Shown: piece after piece, positions 1,212-19,823 of the stretch
How positions within the stretch are numbered: the stretch's first letter is position 1
Layout: each line of letters begins with the position of its first letter
From: a virus
IMG/VR virus record: IMGVR_UViG_3300047493_000014
Span: 1 to 22,116 of that record
Reading direction: 5' to 3' (one strand)
DNA length: 22,116 nucleotides
Notes under the pieces: generated by a model
The model's input: only the letters and a program-made list of their open reading frames with translations
Databases searched by the model: none
Told to the model about the DNA's origin: nothing
Position numbers and translations under genes: made by a program

Positions 1212-1769
1212 ATGATAAAAATACTTTCATTTGATTGCTCCTCTACCACCATCGGTTATGCTGTGTTAGAAGTGGATAATAATATTAATTTTATAGATGT
1301 TAATTATATTAAACCAGAGAAAGATGGTTCGCTTATTACCAAAATTGCCAATACCAGAGATAAAATAAATACTATTATTAATCAAGTGAAGCCCGATCAC
1401 ATTGCCATTGAAGATATTATTGCTTTTATGAAAGGGAAAAGTACAGCTCAAACCATTATTATGCTCACCACTTTTAATAGAATGATTTGTTTAGCTGCCT
1501 ATGATTATCTCAATAAAGAACCTTCTCTTCATAATGTAATGTCAATCAGACATGGATTAAAAAATTCCAAAGTCTTACCTAAGAAAGAAGAAATGCCGGA
1601 ATTGGTGGCTAAACATTTAAATATTAAATTTCCCTATCAGTATAGTAAAAAAGGAAGAGTTAAAGGTAAAGCTATAATTGAAAATCAAGATATGGCAGAT
1701 GCAATTGCCGTAGGATTATATTATTCCTTTCTACTTACTGGTAAAATTAAAAAGAAAGTTAAAAAATGA
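1212..1769 (+). CDS. ruvC: RuvC-like Holliday junction resolvase
   Basis: The protein has 185 residues, close to the usual RuvC length of about 170. The four acidic catalytic positions of the RNase H-like fold are visible: D8 in LSFDCSSTTIGYAV, E67 in AIEDI, and D160 and D163 in NQDMADAIAVG. This order and spacing fit RuvC, which as a dimer cuts four-way junctions symmetrically. In a phage it would resolve branched DNA from recombination-dependent replication or before packaging. The ATG at 1212 has no clear ribosome binding site, yet the DCSST motif begins at residue 8, so no longer N-terminus is needed. The stop overlaps the next start (ATGA), so family A copy 1 is probably translationally coupled to it. 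Confidence 0.88.
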   Translation: MIKILSFDCSSTTIGYAVLEVDNNINFIDVNYIKPEKDGSLITKIANTRDKINTIINQVKPDHIAIEDIIAFMKGKSTAQTIIMLTTFNRMICLAAYDYLNKEPSLHNVMSIRHGLKNSKVLPKKEEMPELVAKHLNIKFPYQYSKKGRVKGKAIIENQDMADAIAVGLYYSFLLTGKIKKKVKK

Positions 1770-2047
1770 AAGAATGTATTCGAGCTGTTAATATTTATAA
1801 AAGTTTTAATTTAAAACATTTTAATTTACAAAATATAAAACAATCTTATATTTTAATAAATAATGATATTTTAATTTTTATGAATGATACTTATAAAAAT
1901 AAGTTTATAAATGAGAAGTGCGGAGTTATATTTATAACTCCCAAATGTACGTTAGAGGAGCTGCACCAAATATCTAAACATCTAAATTATACTATAATAG
2001 ATACTGAGCTTTTTCTTAGAACTCTAAAACATATGGTATTCTTATAA
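1766..2047 (+). CDS. family A small protein, copy 1
   Basis: I do not recognise this 93-residue protein. It is the first of three tandem paralogues. Shared features are the N-terminal RAVNIYKS (IQAVNLYKS in copy 2), a central hydrophobic strand with an acidic stretch (ILIFMNDTYKNKF), GVIF, and the C-terminal IIDTELFLRTLKHMVF. It has no signal peptide, membrane segment or cysteine cluster. Its ATG overlaps the RuvC stop by four bases and its TAA overlaps the ATG of copy 2 by one base, so all three are probably co-translated with RuvC. It is very AT-rich (Ile, Asn, Lys, Phe) and the most diverged of the three at its N-terminus. Confidence 0.75.
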   Translation: MKECIRAVNIYKSFNLKHFNLQNIKQSYILINNDILIFMNDTYKNKFINEKCGVIFITPKCTLEELHQISKHLNYTIIDTELFLRTLKHMVFL

Positions 2048-2391
2048 TGCATATTCAAGCTGTTAATTTATATAAAAGTATATTATCAAATAATATAATA
2101 TATGAACATGATATTTTGTATTATATTCCCAGAATGTGGTTTCATCATCGAGATTATTGGCAAGAAGAAGTGTTGATTGTATTTAATGATGAATATAATG
2201 AATACTTTTATAAAGATCATAAAAGAATAATATTTGAAATTTCTACAAATACCGAAGAAGATTTCAAAAGAATCGCGGCAAATAATCTAATGATAGATGT
2301 TAAAGATTTCTCACCACATTTAATTCCTAACTATAGTATAATAGATACTAAACTTTTTCTCAAAACCCTTAAACACATGGTGTTCTCATAA
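2047..2391 (+). CDS. family A small protein, copy 2
   Basis: This 114-residue protein of unknown function is the longest of the three paralogues. It starts MHIQAVNLYKS and ends IIDTKLFLKTLKHMVFS, nearly the same ends as copy 1. The middle follows the family pattern (VLIVFNDEYNEYFYKD, then IIFEIS) and has an insert of about 15-20 residues before the C-terminal block (LMIDVKDFSPHLIPN). It overlaps both neighbours by one base (TAATG). It probably arose by tandem duplication followed by divergence in the middle. Nothing in the sequence points to an enzymatic activity. Confidence 0.75.
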   Translation: MHIQAVNLYKSILSNNIIYEHDILYYIPRMWFHHRDYWQEEVLIVFNDEYNEYFYKDHKRIIFEISTNTEEDFKRIAANNLMIDVKDFSPHLIPNYSIIDTKLFLKTLKHMVFS

Positions 2392-2711
2392 TGCATATTC
2401 AAGCCGCTCAACTTTATAATAATGTAGTCTCTACTCCTCAAAAATATATGCTAGATTTAATAAAATCTTCTACTATTTATTATTTACCTAATGGATATGT
2501 CTCTACTCCTGTCGTTAATTTTTATTCAGAAGCTATAATTTTATTTAATCAAGAATATACTGGATATTTAACAAAAGATAAACAAGGAGTAATTTTTAAA
2601 GTTCCCTATCCTTCTTTTGAAGAAGAATTAGAAGATATAAACAAAGATGTTAATTACTTAATAGATACCAATCTTTTCGTTAAAACTCTCAAATTAAACT
2701 TTTTCTCTTAA
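2391..2711 (+). CDS. family A small protein, copy 3
   Basis: This 106-residue protein of unknown function is the third tandem paralogue. The N-terminus MHIQAAQLYNN matches copy 2. The centre reads AIILFNQEYTGYLTKDKQGVIFKV, the clearest form of the family motif FN-x-EY-x2-Y-x2-KD. The C-terminus LIDTNLFVKTLK is conserved, but the final HMVF block has drifted to LNFF. Its TAA also begins the AGGAAG that serves the DnaJ-like gene, so the run continues into the chaperone and primase genes without a break. Confidence 0.75.
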   Translation: MHIQAAQLYNNVVSTPQKYMLDLIKSSTIYYLPNGYVSTPVVNFYSEAIILFNQEYTGYLTKDKQGVIFKVPYPSFEEELEDINKDVNYLIDTNLFVKTLKLNFFS

Positions 2712-2717
2712 GGAAGC

Positions 2718-3596
2718 ATGCAAAAATCAGAAGCTTACTCCATCTTAGAATTATCTCCTTCATCCTCTCCAGAAGAAGCTAAAAAACAATATAAAAAACT
2801 TACCAAGAAATATCACCCAGACATTAATAAAGAACCCAATGCCGAAGATAAGTTTAAACAAATTAATCAAGCTTATAATGTTATCTCCAAACCCCAATCT
2901 TTGGAACATCCAACTTATCAAGAAATTCAAAATATAGAACTTAATCTCACCATTGACTTTAAAGAATCTGTCTTAGGAACCAAAAAAGATGTTAAATATT
3001 CCCGAGTCGCCAAATGCCAACCCTGCCAAGGTAATGGTGAAATAAAGTTAGATAATGGTTGTAAAGATTGTCAAGGCAGAGGACAAATTATCAATCGTCA
3101 AAATAATATGGTCATGATGTCTACTTGCACCAAATGCTATGGAAGATCAAATACCCAAACCTGTAAAACTTGCTCGGGTGATGGCTGCCTAACTACTGAT
3201 GTCTCTATCGCTGTCACCATTCCTCCAGGTATCTTAAATAATAATATCTTAAGACTTCAACAAATGGGAAATTATGCCGGCACCTTTATGGGATTAGCAG
3301 ATCAATTCTCTGATGTCTTTTGCCATATTAACGTCATCCCAGATCCCAATCTTTCTTTATTAAATAAAGATGTTATATATAATTTAAACATTTCTTTATT
3401 GCAAGCTTTAACCGGAATGCAAGTAAATGTTCCCACAATCAATGGAACCCAAGATATTACCGTTCCTCCAGCTGCTAAAAATAAAGAAGAAATAATTATT
3501 CCTAAATTAGGTGTCCCTAATCAAGGAAATCAAAAGGTTATTCTTAATGTGGAATATCCAAATGTAGAAACCTTAATCTCTTTCTTGCAAGGATAA
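2718..3596 (+). CDS. dnaJ: DnaJ-like co-chaperone (J domain plus zinc-finger and substrate-binding domain)
   Basis: This 292-residue protein has an N-terminal J domain at about residues 3-57 with the HPD triad at 33-35, the signature that stimulates DnaK ATPase. After a short spacer comes the first beta domain, interrupted by a four-part zinc region: C100-x2-C103-QGNG, C115-x2-C118-QGRG, C137-x2-C140 and C149-x2-C152-SGDG. The rest is the C-terminal substrate-binding fold (VTIPPGI... at 167 onward). The Gly/Phe-rich linker is absent and the protein is shorter than cellular DnaJ (about 375 residues), so the end is trimmed. It probably recruits host DnaK to a phage substrate such as a replication complex or folding virion protein. 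AGGAAG lies upstream of the ATG. It is one base from the next gene and lies among replication genes. Confidence 0.92.
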   Translation: MQKSEAYSILELSPSSSPEEAKKQYKKLTKKYHPDINKEPNAEDKFKQINQAYNVISKPQSLEHPTYQEIQNIELNLTIDFKESVLGTKKDVKYSRVAKCQPCQGNGEIKLDNGCKDCQGRGQIINRQNNMVMMSTCTKCYGRSNTQTCKTCSGDGCLTTDVSIAVTIPPGILNNNILRLQQMGNYAGTFMGLADQFSDVFCHINVIPDPNLSLLNKDVIYNLNISLLQALTGMQVNVPTINGTQDITVPPAAKNKEEIIIPKLGVPNQGNQKVILNVEYPNVETLISFLQG

Positions 3597-3597
3597 T

Positions 3598-3957
3598 ATG
3601 CCAGTCTCAGCCATCTGTAATAATTCATATACCAATGATAAAGGTAAAGTAGTAAAATGCCAACAAGTTGAACCTGTCATGGACCCAACTACCGAAAAAG
3701 TCTTCTGCCCAAATTGTAATTCTGAATTAGTCGTTAATCACTTTACCAAAATTACCATGAAAAATATTAAACAATTCAGACAAAAACCCACCATCCCCTT
3801 CTGTATTAAATGTCAAAATTGCTCCACCGAAAATCAACCCAAAATAATTAATGATAAAATCGTCTGCCCCAAATGTCTGAAAGAACATACTCACCTAACT
3901 AAAGAATTCAAAATAATGTTAAAACTTCAACTCAAGACCGTAAATAAAGATGTATAA
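3598..3957 (+). CDS. double zinc-ribbon protein, possible primase zinc-domain partner
   Basis: This 119-residue protein is built around two zinc-ribbon-like units. Unit 1 has C7, C21 and the knuckle CPNC at 37-40. Unit 2 has C69, C72, C75 and CPKC at 90-93. Zinc ribbons of this kind bind DNA or RNA or hold complexes together. The gene starts one base after the DnaJ-like stop and overlaps the next gene by eight bases. That next gene encodes a DnaG-type core lacking its own zinc-binding domain, so this protein could supply that domain in trans. That role is inferred from position only. A transcription-related zinc ribbon is an alternative. Confidence 0.7.
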   Translation: MPVSAICNNSYTNDKGKVVKCQQVEPVMDPTTEKVFCPNCNSELVVNHFTKITMKNIKQFRQKPTIPFCIKCQNCSTENQPKIINDKIVCPKCLKEHTHLTKEFKIMLKLQLKTVNKDV

Positions 3958-4693
3958 TATCGTCAATACTTGCCAAGAATTACTTAACTCTTATCCAGGC
4001 GCAATCCCTACCAAAGAATATATCTCCAACAGATTAAAAGAATCTTCTCAAACTAAATTTAAATTTGGTTATTTTCCTAACTCTGAAAATCTACCCGCTC
4101 TAACCGATCAAATAAATAAAGATACCCTAATTAATCTCAATCTCCTAAAATCTAATCTCATCGAAGACTCTTCCCCAAGAACCGTCATAACTAATTACTT
4201 TGAAAATCATCCACTAATTATGCCTTTCCATGATCCCTATGGAAATATCGTAGGCTTAGTAGGTAGATCTATAACCGATAACAAATCCATTCCCAAATAT
4301 AAAAATACCCAATTCATTAAAGGTAATTATCTGTTTGGACTATTTCAAAATAAAGAATATATCCTAAAAAAAGGTCACGTCTTCTTAGTTGAAGGACAAT
4401 TAGATGTCATTAAAGCTAATGAAATAGGATTAAATAATATAGTTGCCCTAGGAACTAATTCTATGACTAACTATCAATTTTCTGTTATTACCAGATATTG
4501 TAATAATCTAATTTTATTGTTAGATAATGATCAAGCTGGAATCGAAGGGAGAAAAAGAATCGTCAAAAAGTTTTCCTCGCTGGCCACAATCCGTAACTTT
4601 TACGTGCCTGAGTGTTATAAAGACATTGATGAATATGTCTCGCAAGCCAATCTTAAAACTTGTGACCAAATTAATTTTCACGTAAAGGAATGA
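3950..4693 (+). CDS. toprim-domain DnaG-type primase core
   Basis: This 247-residue protein resembles the catalytic part of bacterial DnaG. Near the N-terminus are KEYISNRLK and KFKFGYFP, equivalent to the region just after the DnaG zinc domain. The basic segment LIMPFHDPYGNIVGLVGRSI leads to PKYKNT and LFGLF. The toprim site follows: E148 in LVEGQLDVIK, then D192 and D194 in LLDNDQAGIEGR, which bind metal ions during primer synthesis. It lacks both the N-terminal zinc domain and the C-terminal helicase-binding domain of full DnaG (about 580 residues). It would prime lagging-strand synthesis, perhaps with the zinc-ribbon protein encoded just upstream. Another toprim activity cannot be excluded. 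The TGA overlaps the next start. Confidence 0.82.
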   Translation: MYNIVNTCQELLNSYPGAIPTKEYISNRLKESSQTKFKFGYFPNSENLPALTDQINKDTLINLNLLKSNLIEDSSPRTVITNYFENHPLIMPFHDPYGNIVGLVGRSITDNKSIPKYKNTQFIKGNYLFGLFQNKEYILKKGHVFLVEGQLDVIKANEIGLNNIVALGTNSMTNYQFSVITRYCNNLILLLDNDQAGIEGRKRIVKKFSSLATIRNFYVPECYKDIDEYVSQANLKTCDQINFHVKE

Positions 4694-5502
4694 TGCAAAA
4701 CTTTAATGATTATATGAAATATAAAGGCTCGCTATATGTTTATTGCTATCAATGCATCACTAATGGCAAAGTTTATATAGGACAAACTAATGATCCTAAA
4801 ACTAGAGACTGGCAACATTCTAAAGGTGAAGGTCAGGTAATAGATTGTGCTATTGCTAAATATGGTAGAGAAAATTTTCTGTATTGGATTGTAGAAATCG
4901 TTAGCACTGATGAAGAATTAAATGAAGCAGAGATTTTCTGGATCGCTGAAATGAGAGCGCAATTAGGAAGAGAAAATGTTTATAATATTTCTGATGGTGG
5001 TAAATATGGAATGAGAGGTCATTCACATAGTGAAGAGTTAAAGAAAAGATTATCTGAAATAGCAATGGGAAAACCAGGAACTAATAAGGGAAAACACTTT
5101 TCTCAAGAATGGAGAAATAGATTATCAGTGTCAAATTCTAACAGAGAATATAAGGCTCGCAGAAGATTTAATGATGAACAAGCAAAAGAAATTTCCAGAT
5201 TATATGTAGAAGAAAAGAAATCTATGTATTTCATTGGAAACAAATATGATTGTGGAAGAAGGATGATTCTTGATATCTTAACAAGATATGGAATCTCTCA
5301 AAGAGATTCTAATTATAGAGGACATAAAAATGGTAAAAATCTTTTTACCGAAGAACAGGAATTAGAAATTTGCGAAATATATAAAACTAATACTGTAAAT
5401 AAAAATGATTTATCTAAAACATATAATTGTTCTGCACATACAATTAAGGACATTTTAATAAGACATAATGTATCAACGAAACTCAATTTGAAGGGAAAAT
5501 AA
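4690..5502 (+). CDS. GIY-YIG homing endonuclease 1
   Basis: This 270-residue protein begins with a GIY-YIG nuclease domain. YVYCYQC stands for the GIY strand, YIGQT at 29-33 for the YIG strand, then R39, H43, the metal-binding E81 and N99. A NUMOD3-like DNA-binding segment follows (HSEELKKRLSEIAMGKPG at about 112-130), then two helix-turn-helix-like units near 160-200 and 215-260 (LSKTYNCSAHTIKDILIRH). Such modular proteins cut a long target and home into it. Either ATG at 4690 or 4693 is possible; GGA lies just upstream and the first overlaps the primase TGA. Its coding strand is G-rich, unlike the C-rich genes before it, which fits a later insertion. Confidence 0.9.
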   Translation: MMQNFNDYMKYKGSLYVYCYQCITNGKVYIGQTNDPKTRDWQHSKGEGQVIDCAIAKYGRENFLYWIVEIVSTDEELNEAEIFWIAEMRAQLGRENVYNISDGGKYGMRGHSHSEELKKRLSEIAMGKPGTNKGKHFSQEWRNRLSVSNSNREYKARRRFNDEQAKEISRLYVEEKKSMYFIGNKYDCGRRMILDILTRYGISQRDSNYRGHKNGKNLFTEEQELEICEIYKTNTVNKNDLSKTYNCSAHTIKDILIRHNVSTKLNLKGK

Positions 5503-11720: not shown

Positions 11721-12638
11721 ATGGGAAAACAACTAACACATGAGCAATTTGTTGAACGCGCTCAAGAAAAACATAATAATAAATACACATATCCTGATTT
11801 ATATATTAAAGGATATATAAAAATTAATATTAAATGCCCAATACATGGCCTTTGGTTACAAAGACCATATAGTCATTTACATGGTTTTGGCTGTCCTAAA
11901 TGTGCAAATGAATATACTTCTTTGTTTTTTATAAAAGATAAACAGAAGTTTATTGATGAGGCAAATATTAAACATAATTTTAAATATAAATATTTAGATG
12001 AATATCAAGGCTCTCATAAAAAAATAAAAATAACTTGTCAATCTCATGGTGATTTTTTACAAACACCAGATAAGCATTTAAATGGAGGAAATGGTTGTCC
12101 TCATTGTTTTGGTAATGTTAAAAAAACTACGCAACAATTTATAAATGAGGCTAATATTGTTCATAATTATCGTTACACATATCCTGGACAATATATTAAC
12201 GCTAGAACAAATATAGATATTAAATGTATAATTCATGGTATATTTCAGCAAGTTCCAGATGTTCATCTTAATGGATGCGGATGTCCTTCTTGCGCTATTA
12301 AAAATGTTTCCAAACCAGAAACTAAATGGTTAGATTATTTAGGTGTTCCTAATAATAATAATTATAGACAATTAAGAATAAAAATTGGTCATTCTTATAT
12401 TAAACCGGATGCATTCAATCCAATTACTAATACTATTTATGAATTTTATGGAGATTTTTGGCATGGCAATCTTAAAGTACTTAATCCTAAAGATATAAAT
12501 AAAACCAATAAAATAAGTTATGGCAAATTATATCTTAAAACTATGGAAAGAGAACGCCTTATTAAAGAACATGGATATAATTTAGTTACCATTTGGGAAA
12601 CAGATTGGAATAAATTCTGTAAAGAAAACAAACTCTAA
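11721..12638 (+). CDS. Vsr-like homing endonuclease 1 with three zinc-finger repeats
   Basis: This 305-residue protein starts with three tandem repeats of about 60-65 residues, each with H-N-x-K/R-Y-x-Y, a strand ending in Cys, then x2-HG, Q-x-P-x2-HL-x-G and a CPxC knuckle (residues 58-61, 126-129 and 188-191). They resemble the DUF723-type DNA-binding repeats of phage homing endonucleases. The C-terminal nuclease has D230, then IYEFYGDFWHGN (E241, D245, H248), and IWETDW with E293. This is the pattern of the Vsr/EDxHD family typified by I-Bth0305I. It probably recognises a long target through the repeats and cuts with the C-terminal domain. It sits between two late-type genes without disrupting either. 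Confidence 0.85.
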   Translation: MGKQLTHEQFVERAQEKHNNKYTYPDLYIKGYIKINIKCPIHGLWLQRPYSHLHGFGCPKCANEYTSLFFIKDKQKFIDEANIKHNFKYKYLDEYQGSHKKIKITCQSHGDFLQTPDKHLNGGNGCPHCFGNVKKTTQQFINEANIVHNYRYTYPGQYINARTNIDIKCIIHGIFQQVPDVHLNGCGCPSCAIKNVSKPETKWLDYLGVPNNNNYRQLRIKIGHSYIKPDAFNPITNTIYEFYGDFWHGNLKVLNPKDINKTNKISYGKLYLKTMERERLIKEHGYNLVTIWETDWNKFCKENKL

Positions 12639-15374: not shown

Positions 15375-16499
15375 ATGGCGAAAACTATGACTACTGAAGA
15401 GTATATTGAAAAAGCAATTAAAAAACACGGCACTATATTTGATTATAGTAAAGTCATTTATTATCGCTGTCATGATTTGATTACAATTAAATGTAAAATA
15501 CATGGCGATTTTATATTACAAGCTTACGCGCACTTATCTGGAAAAATCTGCCCTAAATGTTCAAGAATTAATCAAATTAATAGCATTAAAATACCGCAAG
15601 AAGAAGTATTAAATAAATGCAGAGATACTCATGGTAATAAATATGATTATTCAAAATCTATTTATTATGGTTCAGGTGAAAAAATGTTAATTACATGTTT
15701 AAGCCACGGAGATTTTTGGCAAACTCCACATGATCATATTTCAGGACATGGATGTAAAGAATGTGGTTTTGATGTTTCCAGGAAATGTAGAATATTATCA
15801 TTTGAAGATTTTAAAGCAAAAGCAGATAAAATATTTAATAACAAATATACTTATAATAAAATAGATTATGATAATAATGCTCGTAAAAGCAAATTAACTA
15901 TTAATTGTTTAGCACATGGGGATTTTATACAAAGTAGGAATTGTCATCTAAATGGTCATGGTTGCCAACAATGTGGTAAAAATAAAAGATTAACACCTGA
16001 AATTACTATTAAAAGATCAAAAATCGCTCACGGAAATCTTTATGATTATTCTTTATTTACCACCATTCTTGATAATAAAAAAATGAATATATTGTGTAAA
16101 GAACATGGTGTATTTATACAACGGATTCATGATCATATGAGAGGGGTTGGTTGCCCTCAATGTGGATATAAATCAAAATCTGAGAAAGCTTGGTTAAAAT
16201 CATTAAATATACCACATTTAAAATATCAAAATAGAATTTATTTAGATGAATCTTATGATGAATCTTTTTACATAGCTGATGCTTACGATCCTATTACTAA
16301 TACTATTTATGAATTTGACGGAGATTTTTGGCATGGAAATCTTCAAATCTACGATCCTAAAAAAATAAATAGTTGTAGTAATTTGACATTTGAACAATTA
16401 TATAATAAAACAATTAAGAAAAGAAATACATTAATCAAAATGGGATATAATTTTATTTCAATTTGGGAATCGGAGTTCTTAGCTCGAAACCAAGAATAA
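15375..16499 (+). CDS. Vsr-like homing endonuclease 2 with four zinc-finger repeats
   Basis: This 374-residue protein has the same plan as the 305-residue endonuclease upstream but with four repeats. Each ends in a Cys knuckle: CPKC at 59-62, CKEC at 127-130, CQQC at 197-200 and CPQC at 260-263. Each also has C-x2-HG and a Gln-containing loop with a His before Gly. The nuclease region has D302, IYEFDGDFWHGN (E313, D317, H320) and IWESEF with E365. The extra repeat would lengthen the recognised DNA. The two proteins share the nuclease signature closely but differ throughout, so they are old relatives. It is flanked by complete genes and precedes the nucleotidyltransferase. Confidence 0.86.
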   Translation: MAKTMTTEEYIEKAIKKHGTIFDYSKVIYYRCHDLITIKCKIHGDFILQAYAHLSGKICPKCSRINQINSIKIPQEEVLNKCRDTHGNKYDYSKSIYYGSGEKMLITCLSHGDFWQTPHDHISGHGCKECGFDVSRKCRILSFEDFKAKADKIFNNKYTYNKIDYDNNARKSKLTINCLAHGDFIQSRNCHLNGHGCQQCGKNKRLTPEITIKRSKIAHGNLYDYSLFTTILDNKKMNILCKEHGVFIQRIHDHMRGVGCPQCGYKSKSEKAWLKSLNIPHLKYQNRIYLDESYDESFYIADAYDPITNTIYEFDGDFWHGNLQIYDPKKINSCSNLTFEQLYNKTIKKRNTLIKMGYNFISIWESEFLARNQE

Positions 16500-16514: not shown

Positions 16515-17282
16515 ATGAAGCTTCGAGAATTATTAAACATTTTAAAACAAACTCAACAAGAGTTTGAAACCTCGGAAGCTTTAATTTGCGGCGGTACGGT
16601 TAGAGATAAATATCAATCAAATATAAATGGTTCTAAATTAGATGGTATAGCTGATTTAGATTTATGCACGGGTGATAAAACCATAGATTTACTATCTGAA
16701 GAGTATTATAATAAATTAGCTAAGCAATTTAATATTGAGCGTAAAGTAATGGCAGACGGTCATTCTACCATCTTCATTGGCAATCTTAAAATGGATTTCT
16801 CTTCTAATTTTAATATTCCCAATATTGATCATTATTTAAAATATCTTAAAGTAGAATCTACTTCTTTAAATAAGGAAGTTTTCTCCAGGGATTTTACTTG
16901 CAATGCTTTACTAATGAATCTTGATTTAACTAAAATTATGGATCCTACTCAAAGGGGATTTAAAGATATTAAAGATAAGAAAATTAGAACTTGTTTGTCT
17001 CCTAAAATTACTTTAACTTCTAACAAGAATAGAGTAGTTAGGGCTATTTATTTGGCTTGTAAATTAGATTTTGATATAGATCAGTCTATTATAGATTATG
17101 TTAAAGCTAATCCATTAACTATTAAAATTTCTACTCCAAAATCTTTGTCAGAAAAATTAAATCAAGCTTTTGCAAAAGATGGAGATAGGGCGTCTGATTT
17201 AATAACTAAGATGGGATTATGGAATCAGGTGCCAATCTTAGAATCTATGTATCAATATTATCAAAAACATTTGGAGAAATAA
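16515..17282 (+). CDS. poly(A) polymerase / CCA-adding enzyme family nucleotidyltransferase
   Basis: This 255-residue protein carries the class II nucleotidyltransferase signature. ALICGGTVRDKY at 22-33 gives the GG motif with the RD pair at 30-31. ADLDL supplies the metal-binding D47 and D49, and D94 in LKMDFS may be the third carboxylate. RDFTCNALLMNL at 125-136, then MDPTQRGFKDIKDKKIRT, and NRVVRAIYLACKLDFDID at 172-189 match the nucleotide-selecting and neck regions. Members add CCA to tRNA ends or poly(A) to RNA. At 255 residues it lacks most of the C-terminal body and tail of bacterial CCA enzymes (about 400), so RNA choice cannot be told. No tRNA gene is present in the window. The next gene follows directly. 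Confidence 0.85.
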   Translation: MKLRELLNILKQTQQEFETSEALICGGTVRDKYQSNINGSKLDGIADLDLCTGDKTIDLLSEEYYNKLAKQFNIERKVMADGHSTIFIGNLKMDFSSNFNIPNIDHYLKYLKVESTSLNKEVFSRDFTCNALLMNLDLTKIMDPTQRGFKDIKDKKIRTCLSPKITLTSNKNRVVRAIYLACKLDFDIDQSIIDYVKANPLTIKISTPKSLSEKLNQAFAKDGDRASDLITKMGLWNQVPILESMYQYYQKHLEK

Positions 17283-19823
17283 ATGAATATAGTTAGTTTA
17301 TTATTTAAGTATGCTCAGACAGAAAAAGTATTGGCTAAATTAGACCAATTAGGTGTAACTAGTAATATGGTTAATTATGTTGTTGGGCTTGATCCTAAAT
17401 TATATGGATTAGCATTAGCAGAAATAAATAAAAATAAAACTATATCTATTGATGAGTTAAAAAATAAGATTACACAAAAACTTGAAATTATTAAATTAAA
17501 AGAACAAACTGCACAAAATATTGAAAAAGACATTCCACAGATTGATAATGTTAATATTAAAAATTGGGCAGTAAATCAAATTAAAAAATATCCTAATAAA
17601 AAAGCAATACTTTTACAACATTTAGATAAAATAATTAAAGTAGTAAATGAACAAGAAATTAATATATTTTCTTATGATATAGATAGTATTATTAAATATG
17701 TTAATGAATATGATAAAATGGGATTGTCATCAAATGATGAATCATCTAATTTTATTAATAAAGCATTAGATCATGCTAATAATAAATTAATGACTATTAA
17801 TAATAAATCATTAATAGCTTGGTCTAAGGCTCATTTATTAAGAATTGCTAAAGAGTGGAAAAGAAATATAGATAAAGAATTAACGAACAAACCATTTAAT
17901 CATTTGGTTGGGGAAGCTAAACAAATGAAAGAAGATTTAGATAATGGATTATATAGGGACAAAGAATTGCCGAATACACCATTAAGAAATCGAGAATTTG
18001 ATGCTTTATTGGCTAATTTAGATTTTCTTGATGATTGGATAAGTAATACTAATATTGATTTATCTAAGATTTCAGTTGATGCGGCCATCAAGCATAGTAA
18101 TGATTGGCATCATAAGGTGGCAGAATCTGGAACTGGGTTAAAATTCGATCCAATTAATAAGTCAAATATAGTATATGGTCCAAATAATTGGAAAGATGAA
18201 AAGAATAATGGTTTTATAATTTTGGAATTAAAGTCTGAAAACGATCTTAAGGTAGAGGGAGCGAAACAAAATCATTGTGTGGGAGGCTATGGTGAAAAAA
18301 TTAAAAATCAAGAATGTAGGATTTTCTCTTTAAGAAATGTTAATGATATATATAAACCAATCCTAACCATTGAAACGGATATGAGTGGGGCTATAGTTAG
18401 GCAAGATTATGGTGCTGATAATTCCAAATCCGATCAAAAATATCATGATATGGTTTCAGAATGGAAAGGAACTAATAAAGTAGATATGTCTAAATTATCT
18501 AATGAAGACAAATATCAAATTATAAATAATAATCCATCAATGGAAATATTAAGACAATTATCTGAAGATTCACATATGGGTATCAGACATGCAGTTGCGG
18601 AAAAAGAAAATCTTGATTATAATATTTTATTAAAATTATCACAAGATCCGAATCATCTTGTTAGAGAAAAAATTGCACAAAAAGAACCTGCTCCAGCTGA
18701 TATTTTAAAAAAATTATCACAAGATCCGAATCATCTTGTTAGAGCAGCGGTTGCACAAAATGACACTACTCCAGCTGATATTTTAAAAAAATTATCAGAA
18801 GATCAAGATTCTTATGTTAAAGAAAGGGTTGCACAAAATGACACTACTCCAGCTGATATTTTAAAAAAATTATCAGAAGATCAAGATGATTATATTAGAG
18901 CAGTGGTTGCGCAAAATAAAAATACTTCTCCTAATAGTTTATCAAAATTATCAGAAGATCAAGATCAACATGTTAGAGAATGGGTTGCAAAAAATGTAAA
19001 TACTCCACCTAATAGTTTATCAAAATTGTCAAAAGATGAATACGCTAATATTAAATTAGCAGTTGCAAAAAATAAAAATACCCCACCTAATGCTTTAATA
19101 GAATTATCAAAAGAGAAATATCTTTATATTAGAATATATGTTGCACAAAATAAAAATACTCCTATTGAAACTTTGCATATTTTAGCACAAGATTCTGATG
19201 AAGTAGTTAAAGATTATGCAAAAGAAACTCTTGAAAAGTTAAAAAAATCAAAAGCCTCTATTTTAAATAATTTAACTAAAAAGTCTAGATTTAATCTTTT
19301 TAAAAGAATTATTAAAGCAGGTCCTAATTATGATTTAGGTCAAGGTCTTTATGATAATATGGATAAATACAAAAGCGTTAAACAATTCTTAAAACGTCCA
19401 CATGGTCCTGGTGCATTTACCAAAGATATTAATAATATAGATTTTAAGGATGACAATATTGAATCCAATCCAATTATACCAGAATCTGGTTCTTCATATT
19501 TAGATTCAATACCAATTTCTTACAATGAAAATTATACCGCTCTGCCAGATCAAGATGGCAAAACTGAAGCCGATCTTGACTTCGGAGAAGATATAGACAA
19601 TGATAGTCAAGGTCATCTTGATTATGTTAAAGAATTAATTGATCCTAAAGATTTAGAAAAGTTAGAATCTAAATACTTAGACTCTTCAGAACAAGGATTA
19701 TTTGGTCTGCCCGATGGAGTTGATCAAGAAGGACATGACGCAGACCAAACTATCTCTATAGAAAATTCTAATGTGGTTAAAGATAATGGAAGACAAATGT
19801 ATGAAGATAAATGGAATATCTAA
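17283..19823 (+). CDS. PcfJ-like protein with LRV/HEAT-type repeats
   Basis: This 846-residue protein has several parts. The N-terminal MNIVSLLFKYAQTEKVL and about 300 residues of charged helix are unrecognised. At 325-395 is a PcfJ-like core: KQNHCVGGYGEKI (H331, C332), CRIFSLRN, KPILTIETDMSG and QDYGADN. PcfJ was named from a conjugative plasmid and its biochemical function is unknown. Residues 426-633 are eight 26-residue repeats with consensus LS-x-D-x3-V-R-x2-VA-x-N-x-TP, close to leucine-rich variant repeats and likely a curved helical binding surface. The last 180 residues are acidic and resemble a separate protein (KAGPNYDLGQGLYDNMDKYK onward). GGAGAA precedes the ATG. A scaffold or binding role is plausible but unproven. 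Confidence 0.82.
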   Translation: MNIVSLLFKYAQTEKVLAKLDQLGVTSNMVNYVVGLDPKLYGLALAEINKNKTISIDELKNKITQKLEIIKLKEQTAQNIEKDIPQIDNVNIKNWAVNQIKKYPNKKAILLQHLDKIIKVVNEQEINIFSYDIDSIIKYVNEYDKMGLSSNDESSNFINKALDHANNKLMTINNKSLIAWSKAHLLRIAKEWKRNIDKELTNKPFNHLVGEAKQMKEDLDNGLYRDKELPNTPLRNREFDALLANLDFLDDWISNTNIDLSKISVDAAIKHSNDWHHKVAESGTGLKFDPINKSNIVYGPNNWKDEKNNGFIILELKSENDLKVEGAKQNHCVGGYGEKIKNQECRIFSLRNVNDIYKPILTIETDMSGAIVRQDYGADNSKSDQKYHDMVSEWKGTNKVDMSKLSNEDKYQIINNNPSMEILRQLSEDSHMGIRHAVAEKENLDYNILLKLSQDPNHLVREKIAQKEPAPADILKKLSQDPNHLVRAAVAQNDTTPADILKKLSEDQDSYVKERVAQNDTTPADILKKLSEDQDDYIRAVVAQNKNTSPNSLSKLSEDQDQHVREWVAKNVNTPPNSLSKLSKDEYANIKLAVAKNKNTPPNALIELSKEKYLYIRIYVAQNKNTPIETLHILAQDSDEVVKDYAKETLEKLKKSKASILNNLTKKSRFNLFKRIIKAGPNYDLGQGLYDNMDKYKSVKQFLKRPHGPGAFTKDINNIDFKDDNIESNPIIPESGSSYLDSIPISYNENYTALPDQDGKTEADLDFGEDIDNDSQGHLDYVKELIDPKDLEKLESKYLDSSEQGLFGLPDGVDQEGHDADQTISIENSNVVKDNGRQMYEDKWNI
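18558..19181 (+). repeat. eight 78-bp in-frame tandem repeats
   Basis: Eight units of 78 bases start at 18558, 18636, 18714, 18792, 18870, 18948, 19026 and 19104. Degenerate units may cap both ends. Two stretches of 61 bases (18749-18809 and 18827-18887) are identical, and 35 bases at 18632-18666 recur at 18710-18744. The identity at DNA level, silent sites included, shows recent duplication of the central units, while outer units have diverged. Confidence 0.92.

Follow-up and report, generated by a model that had tools for sequence, protein, structure and literature searches.

Three small open reading frames lie in tandem in the window (the whole 22,116-nt stretch of viral DNA analysed here), between a gene for a RuvC-like Holliday junction resolvase (1212–1769; Pfam RuvC 9e-8, phrog_159 4e-14) and one for a DnaJ-like protein (2718–3596; 40–51% identical to IMG/VR relatives, with matches to phage DnaJ proteins). 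We refer to the three as family A, assigned from the ORF list, paralogy and charge: copy 1 (1766–2047, 93 aa, pI 9.05), copy 2 (2047–2391, 114 aa, pI 5.9) and copy 3 (2391–2711, 106 aa, pI 4.9), all on the plus strand like the other features of the row. The first-pass annotation had these coordinates and lengths (93, 114 and 106 codons) exactly right. Packing is tight: the ruvC stop overlaps the start of copy 1 by 4 nt at 1766 (ATGA), and the junctions of copies 1 and 2 (2047) and copies 2 and 3 (2391) each read TAATG, a 1-nt overlap. Among 1,000 first-order Markov sequences modelled on the 24% GC stretch, the longest ORF averages 33 aa and none is of at least 93 aa. Net charges of +3.8, −3.9 and −3.4 for copies 1 to 3 lack the strong negative sign of an Ocr-like DNA mimic, and we reject that identity for the family.

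The gene row continues downstream with a primase (TOPRIM part, 3950–4693; phrog_6444 6e-34), followed directly by a GIY-YIG/NUMOD3 homing endonuclease (4690–5502; Pfam GIY-YIG 2e-9). Upstream of an ssb-like gene sits an endonuclease VII-like HNH ORF or fragment (98–382; phrog_1035 4e-4), so that the segment holding family A is bracketed by two endonuclease-type genes. The gap between the ssb-like gene and ruvC contains a terminator-like hairpin (1138–1161) with a 10-pair stem (GCCCGAGACA/TGTCTCGGGC), called by consensus match only.

The three ORFs are genuine tandem paralogues. Pairwise alignments give 30–39 identities over 90–100 aligned residues, with local-alignment z-scores of 17, 13 and 19 (500 shuffles per pair), well above chance, and phmmer relates the copies at E ~1e-7 to 1e-8 against all six-frame ORFs of ~95 related loci. 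Anchored at the C terminus, the last 17 residues hold 9 invariant positions against a shuffled mean of 0.09 (p ~5e-5 or less); overall, 22 of 90 ungapped columns are invariant, concentrated in the tail (11 of 19) relative to the head (4 of 14) and core (7 of 57). At the DNA level, a direct repeat of 119 nt (76% identity, 344-nt spacing) spans both internal gene junctions, its first copy (1985–2103) covering the tail of copy 1 and the head of copy 2, and its second (2329–2447) the tail of copy 2 and the head of copy 3. Most of what looks like conserved ends is thus a single contiguous block across the gene junction that recurs after 344 nt, the pattern expected from tandem duplication. Together, the shuffling, the phmmer E-values, the invariant tail residues and the DNA repeat bear out the triplication proposed at first pass.

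The motifs on which that proposal was built are slightly idealised, not being identical in all copies. The head motif IQAVNLYKS is exact in copy 2 only (IRAVNIYKS in copy 1, IQAAQLYNN in copy 3), after starts of MKEC in copy 1 and MH in copies 2 and 3. The central FNxEY occurs in copies 2 and 3, with MNDTY in its place in copy 1. The tail reads IIDTxLFL[KR]TLKHMVF in copies 1 and 2 and LIDTNLFVKTLKLNFF in copy 3, where it is more diverged.

Selection was compared between copies by NG86. Whole-gene dN/dS over alignable codons is ~0.65–0.87 (dS 0.7–0.8) and never exceeds 1, although as a test for diversifying selection this is uninformative, since the three copies have diverged and their middles align poorly. 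Conservation is highest at codon position 2 and lowest at position 3 (0.75/0.49, 0.72/0.50 and 0.66/0.41 for the three pairs). Between copies 1 and 2, the final 20 codons have dN 0.09 and dS 1.09: the C-terminal ~20 residues are under purifying selection and, with dN so far below dS, the tail is protected as protein and not as RNA. An RNA-level cause is further disfavoured because silent tail sites vary freely and an Rfam search of the window returned no match. Of the earlier suggestion of a diversifying core under strong selection, the differences of the middles in sequence and length hold; positive selection does not emerge from these ratios, and the signal that the pairwise comparison did yield, in the tail of copies 1 and 2, is purifying.

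Family A is a new orphan protein family in a known kind of place. Profile searches of Pfam, PHROGs, NCBIfam and PADLOC found nothing above chance, and the best PDB profile hit has an E-value of 0.17 (Cmr6), so the first-pass annotation, which knew no named family with this signature, is borne out across these libraries. In PADLOC, which covers defence and CRISPR families, copies 2 and 3 have no match; a marginal Cas12c match to copy 1 alone (9e-4 over 64 residues) we take, without a control, as compositional. Phage and plasmid records yielded no relative, nor did scans of IMG/VR and GTDB contigs, whether the query was a single protein, the alignment or either of two motif patterns made by hand; these scans start from short exact peptide patterns, which distant relatives can escape. 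The motif patterns gave 14 and 22 matches, and the context of none of them resembled that of family A. When 42 whole records of related phages were searched by profile, with the window as positive control, no family A gene was recovered from them, and across all ~170 related loci the family comprises the three copies of the window. AlphaFold models of copies 2 and 3 from the three-row alignment are unusable (pLDDT 40 and 38); in both, the head is modelled as a helix and the tail as a strand–helix, to which we give little weight at pLDDT 38–40.

The related loci, found via DnaJ, RuvC and a sigma-like protein, number ~170 (many from the same contigs) and come from one group of huge phages, with records of up to 481 kb. 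They provide 73 distinct ruvC–dnaJ junctions, the window included. Taking a gap of 30 nt or less as empty, ruvC abuts or overlaps dnaJ in 64 of the 73, and the 9 filled junctions comprise six HNH genes (intact or decayed), one orphan ORF, one spacer and the family A triplet. The HNH inserts are open in L111 and L011 and their near-identical copies (171 and 255 aa, matching phrog_1035, endonuclease VII) and reduced to decayed pieces of the same family in L070, L160, L046 and L098; the HNH ORF at 98–382 of the window belongs to this family too. The orphan ORF (L161, 4612–4956, 114 aa) is unlike family A and has no Pfam, PHROGs or phage match, and the L148 slot is a 107-nt spacer without a recognisable gene. 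On a RuvC+DnaJ tree the filled slots are scattered, and in L018 and L109, close relatives of L011 and L160, the slot is empty. Homing endonucleases have therefore landed repeatedly at the ruvC/dnaJ boundary, which can also hold other small genes, and the family A triplet is a lineage-specific insertion in this slot within the ruvC–dnaJ–primase row. Copy number, which the first-pass annotation proposed to compare, does vary between phages, but here all-or-none: zero in the 72 other junctions and three in the window. The window branches deeply (~60% RuvC+DnaJ identity to its nearest relatives), so loss from the relatives, instead of gain in the window, is possible, and a closer phage carrying family A may exist unsampled.

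We also observed that the slot HNH gene of L011 (6615–7382) and L017 (5053–5820) opens with a peptide similar to the beginning of the dnaJ that follows (LNLQEVTNILELSSDVSQEKSK versus MNLEEAYRILGLSLNSSKEEAK), as if insertion had duplicated the dnaJ 5′ end. Elsewhere in the window, two similar ORFs among apparent structural genes (11721–12638 and 15375–16499) match treble-clef zinc fingers (DUF4379/DUF723) repeatedly, resemble each other at their C-terminal ends, and are possibly mobile endonucleases. Beside the second of these, a protein at 16515–17282 matches the head domain of tRNA nucleotidyltransferase/poly(A) polymerase, and in an 846-aa protein (17283–19823) a region that matches phrog_8470 and phrog_3169 is followed by repeats of the type LSEDQDxxVRxxVAQNxNTPxxxLxxL, which by eye resemble HEAT repeats.

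In position, family A resembles the free-standing HNH homing endonucleases (phrog_1035-like) of its relatives: it occupies the same ruvC/dnaJ slot with the same presence/absence pattern, overlaps its upstream gene and has no obvious promoter of its own. T4 has comparable free-standing endonucleases (mob/seg type) lodged between conserved genes; several are cassettes without a promoter that join existing polycistronic messages, and some overlap the ORF ahead of them (PMC2988022). That conserved genes flank the insert and that most relatives have an empty allele (64 of 73 junctions) is a likeness of position only; family A shows no similarity to HNH or GIY-YIG proteins, is much smaller and forms three tandem paralogues. 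With three HNH proteins as queries, tblastn matched the inserts of six relatives and nothing in the window insert at E 0.01, and we reject a decayed endonuclease as the origin of the cassette. The bracketing of a core segment by endonuclease genes (98–382 and 4690–5502) also recalls HEG islands, in which a core replication segment is surrounded by homing endonucleases, with genes between them (Barth, Dunham and Seed, PMC10448857). Published HEG-island cargo consists of essential core genes with nucleotide-level conservation between phages (PMC10448857), whereas family A is an orphan on one contig: searches of IMG/VR, GTDB and the related loci turned up no other phage with the cassette, and the neighbouring RuvC and DnaJ of the relatives are ~60% identical or less.

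A second tandem family of small proteins offers a parallel of a different kind. It lies between the sigma-like gene and a KKAYRL gene, in 0–3 copies per phage (window 7436–8078; L004 9576–9800; L036 6780–7031; L042 9937–10104; L056 10859–11301; L064 10445–11075; L076 11112–11342), and its ORFs, often in tandem, share the ending DLYDILxDExKLxxLxxKLKxKAFW-stop. Different Ala codons (GCC, GCT, GCG or GCA) precede FW, so this tail too is conserved as protein. In L009 (10521–10778) and L075 (10479–10652) the ORFs of this slot share the KKLKLxxFW-stop tail but carry another body, with an HRE[NT]GPA-type motif, so that a single tail appears to be joined to unrelated bodies. Like family A, the second family combines tandem small ORFs, variable bodies and a conserved C-terminal tail in a slot often shared with homing endonucleases; unlike family A, it is widespread in the relatives, and its sequence is different. 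That the two are branches of one family with a common tail, as their shared form of tandem triplets of small proteins ending [TK]LKxxxF[SLW] might suggest, is highly improbable: profile comparison rejects the tail link, with an hhalign probability of 0.4% over 5 columns (E 0.14).

Two further readings give the cassette a different standing. Its position and translational coupling inside the ruvC–dnaJ–primase row, and a tail kept under purifying selection, would suit an accessory of the replication module, whose copies bind a neighbouring phage protein (RuvC, DnaJ, the primase or, via the LF-containing tail, the sliding clamp) and adjust replication or recombination. Yet relatives keep the same row without family A, which makes the family dispensable for the row's basic function, and no match to clamp-binding or replication families appears in Pfam, PHROGs or NCBIfam; we consider this role unlikely. 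Similarly unlikely is that the copies are a mobile-element remnant or hitchhiker without phage function, persisting by sitting in, or protecting, a homing-endonuclease target. The slot is indeed an endonuclease landing site, where other inserts are often decaying (L046, L070, L098 and L160), but the cassette has no HNH similarity, and its three intact frames, the tail dN far below dS and the low conservation of position 3 argue that the family A proteins have been selected.

We tentatively favour, over both, family A as accessory cargo whose copies share a tail and vary in the middle, with a role most likely directed at the host or at defence. The two parts of this reading differ in strength: its genomic part, taken alone, we hold to be very probable, and its functional part, taken alone, is rather doubtful. 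Genomically, a single small gene of a new lineage-specific family would have entered the ruvC/dnaJ boundary of a huge-phage replication row and then duplicated in tandem to three copies. Since the boundary is a recurrent HNH landing site, the cassette probably arrived, or displaced an endonuclease, by the same break-and-recombine traffic; the slot in this phage has no endonuclease gene inside, so the link to homing is positional only. The three genes would share a transcript with ruvC and dnaJ, started at a promoter that lies past the terminator-like hairpin, and their proteins would be made along with the replication genes by translational reinitiation at the overlaps.

Functionally, the conserved tail (SIIDT, then LFLKTLKHMVF) may bind one common partner, and the variable middle could adapt each copy to its own target, or its own variant of a target, with a host or competitor (defence) factor the likeliest. 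We favour such a role because the genes are accessory and lineage-specific; the family libraries, PADLOC and the AlphaFold models (pLDDT 38–40) gave no sequence or structure evidence for it, and a host-factor role is speculative. Anti-CRISPRs are small, lineage-specific counter-defence proteins of phages with few or no homologues, and are found clustered; the genes in such a cluster are usually unrelated to one another, and an HTH regulator often accompanies them. Family A may be likened to them by analogy in size, lineage restriction, scarcity of homologues and clustering, but its members are paralogues with no HTH gene among them. A more elaborate version, in which tandem copies with one docking tail and interchangeable middles form an effector array in a homing-endonuclease landing site, its variants swapped between phages and neutralising several variants of a host or competitor factor, strikes us as distinctly improbable.

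If the accessory-cargo reading is true, boundaries repeatedly struck by homing endonucleases would be places to seek small accessory phage genes. One such slot has received two unrelated orphan insertions, family A and the L161 ORF, and orphan small proteins from slots of this kind would be proteins to test for a part in counter-defence or superinfection in huge phages.
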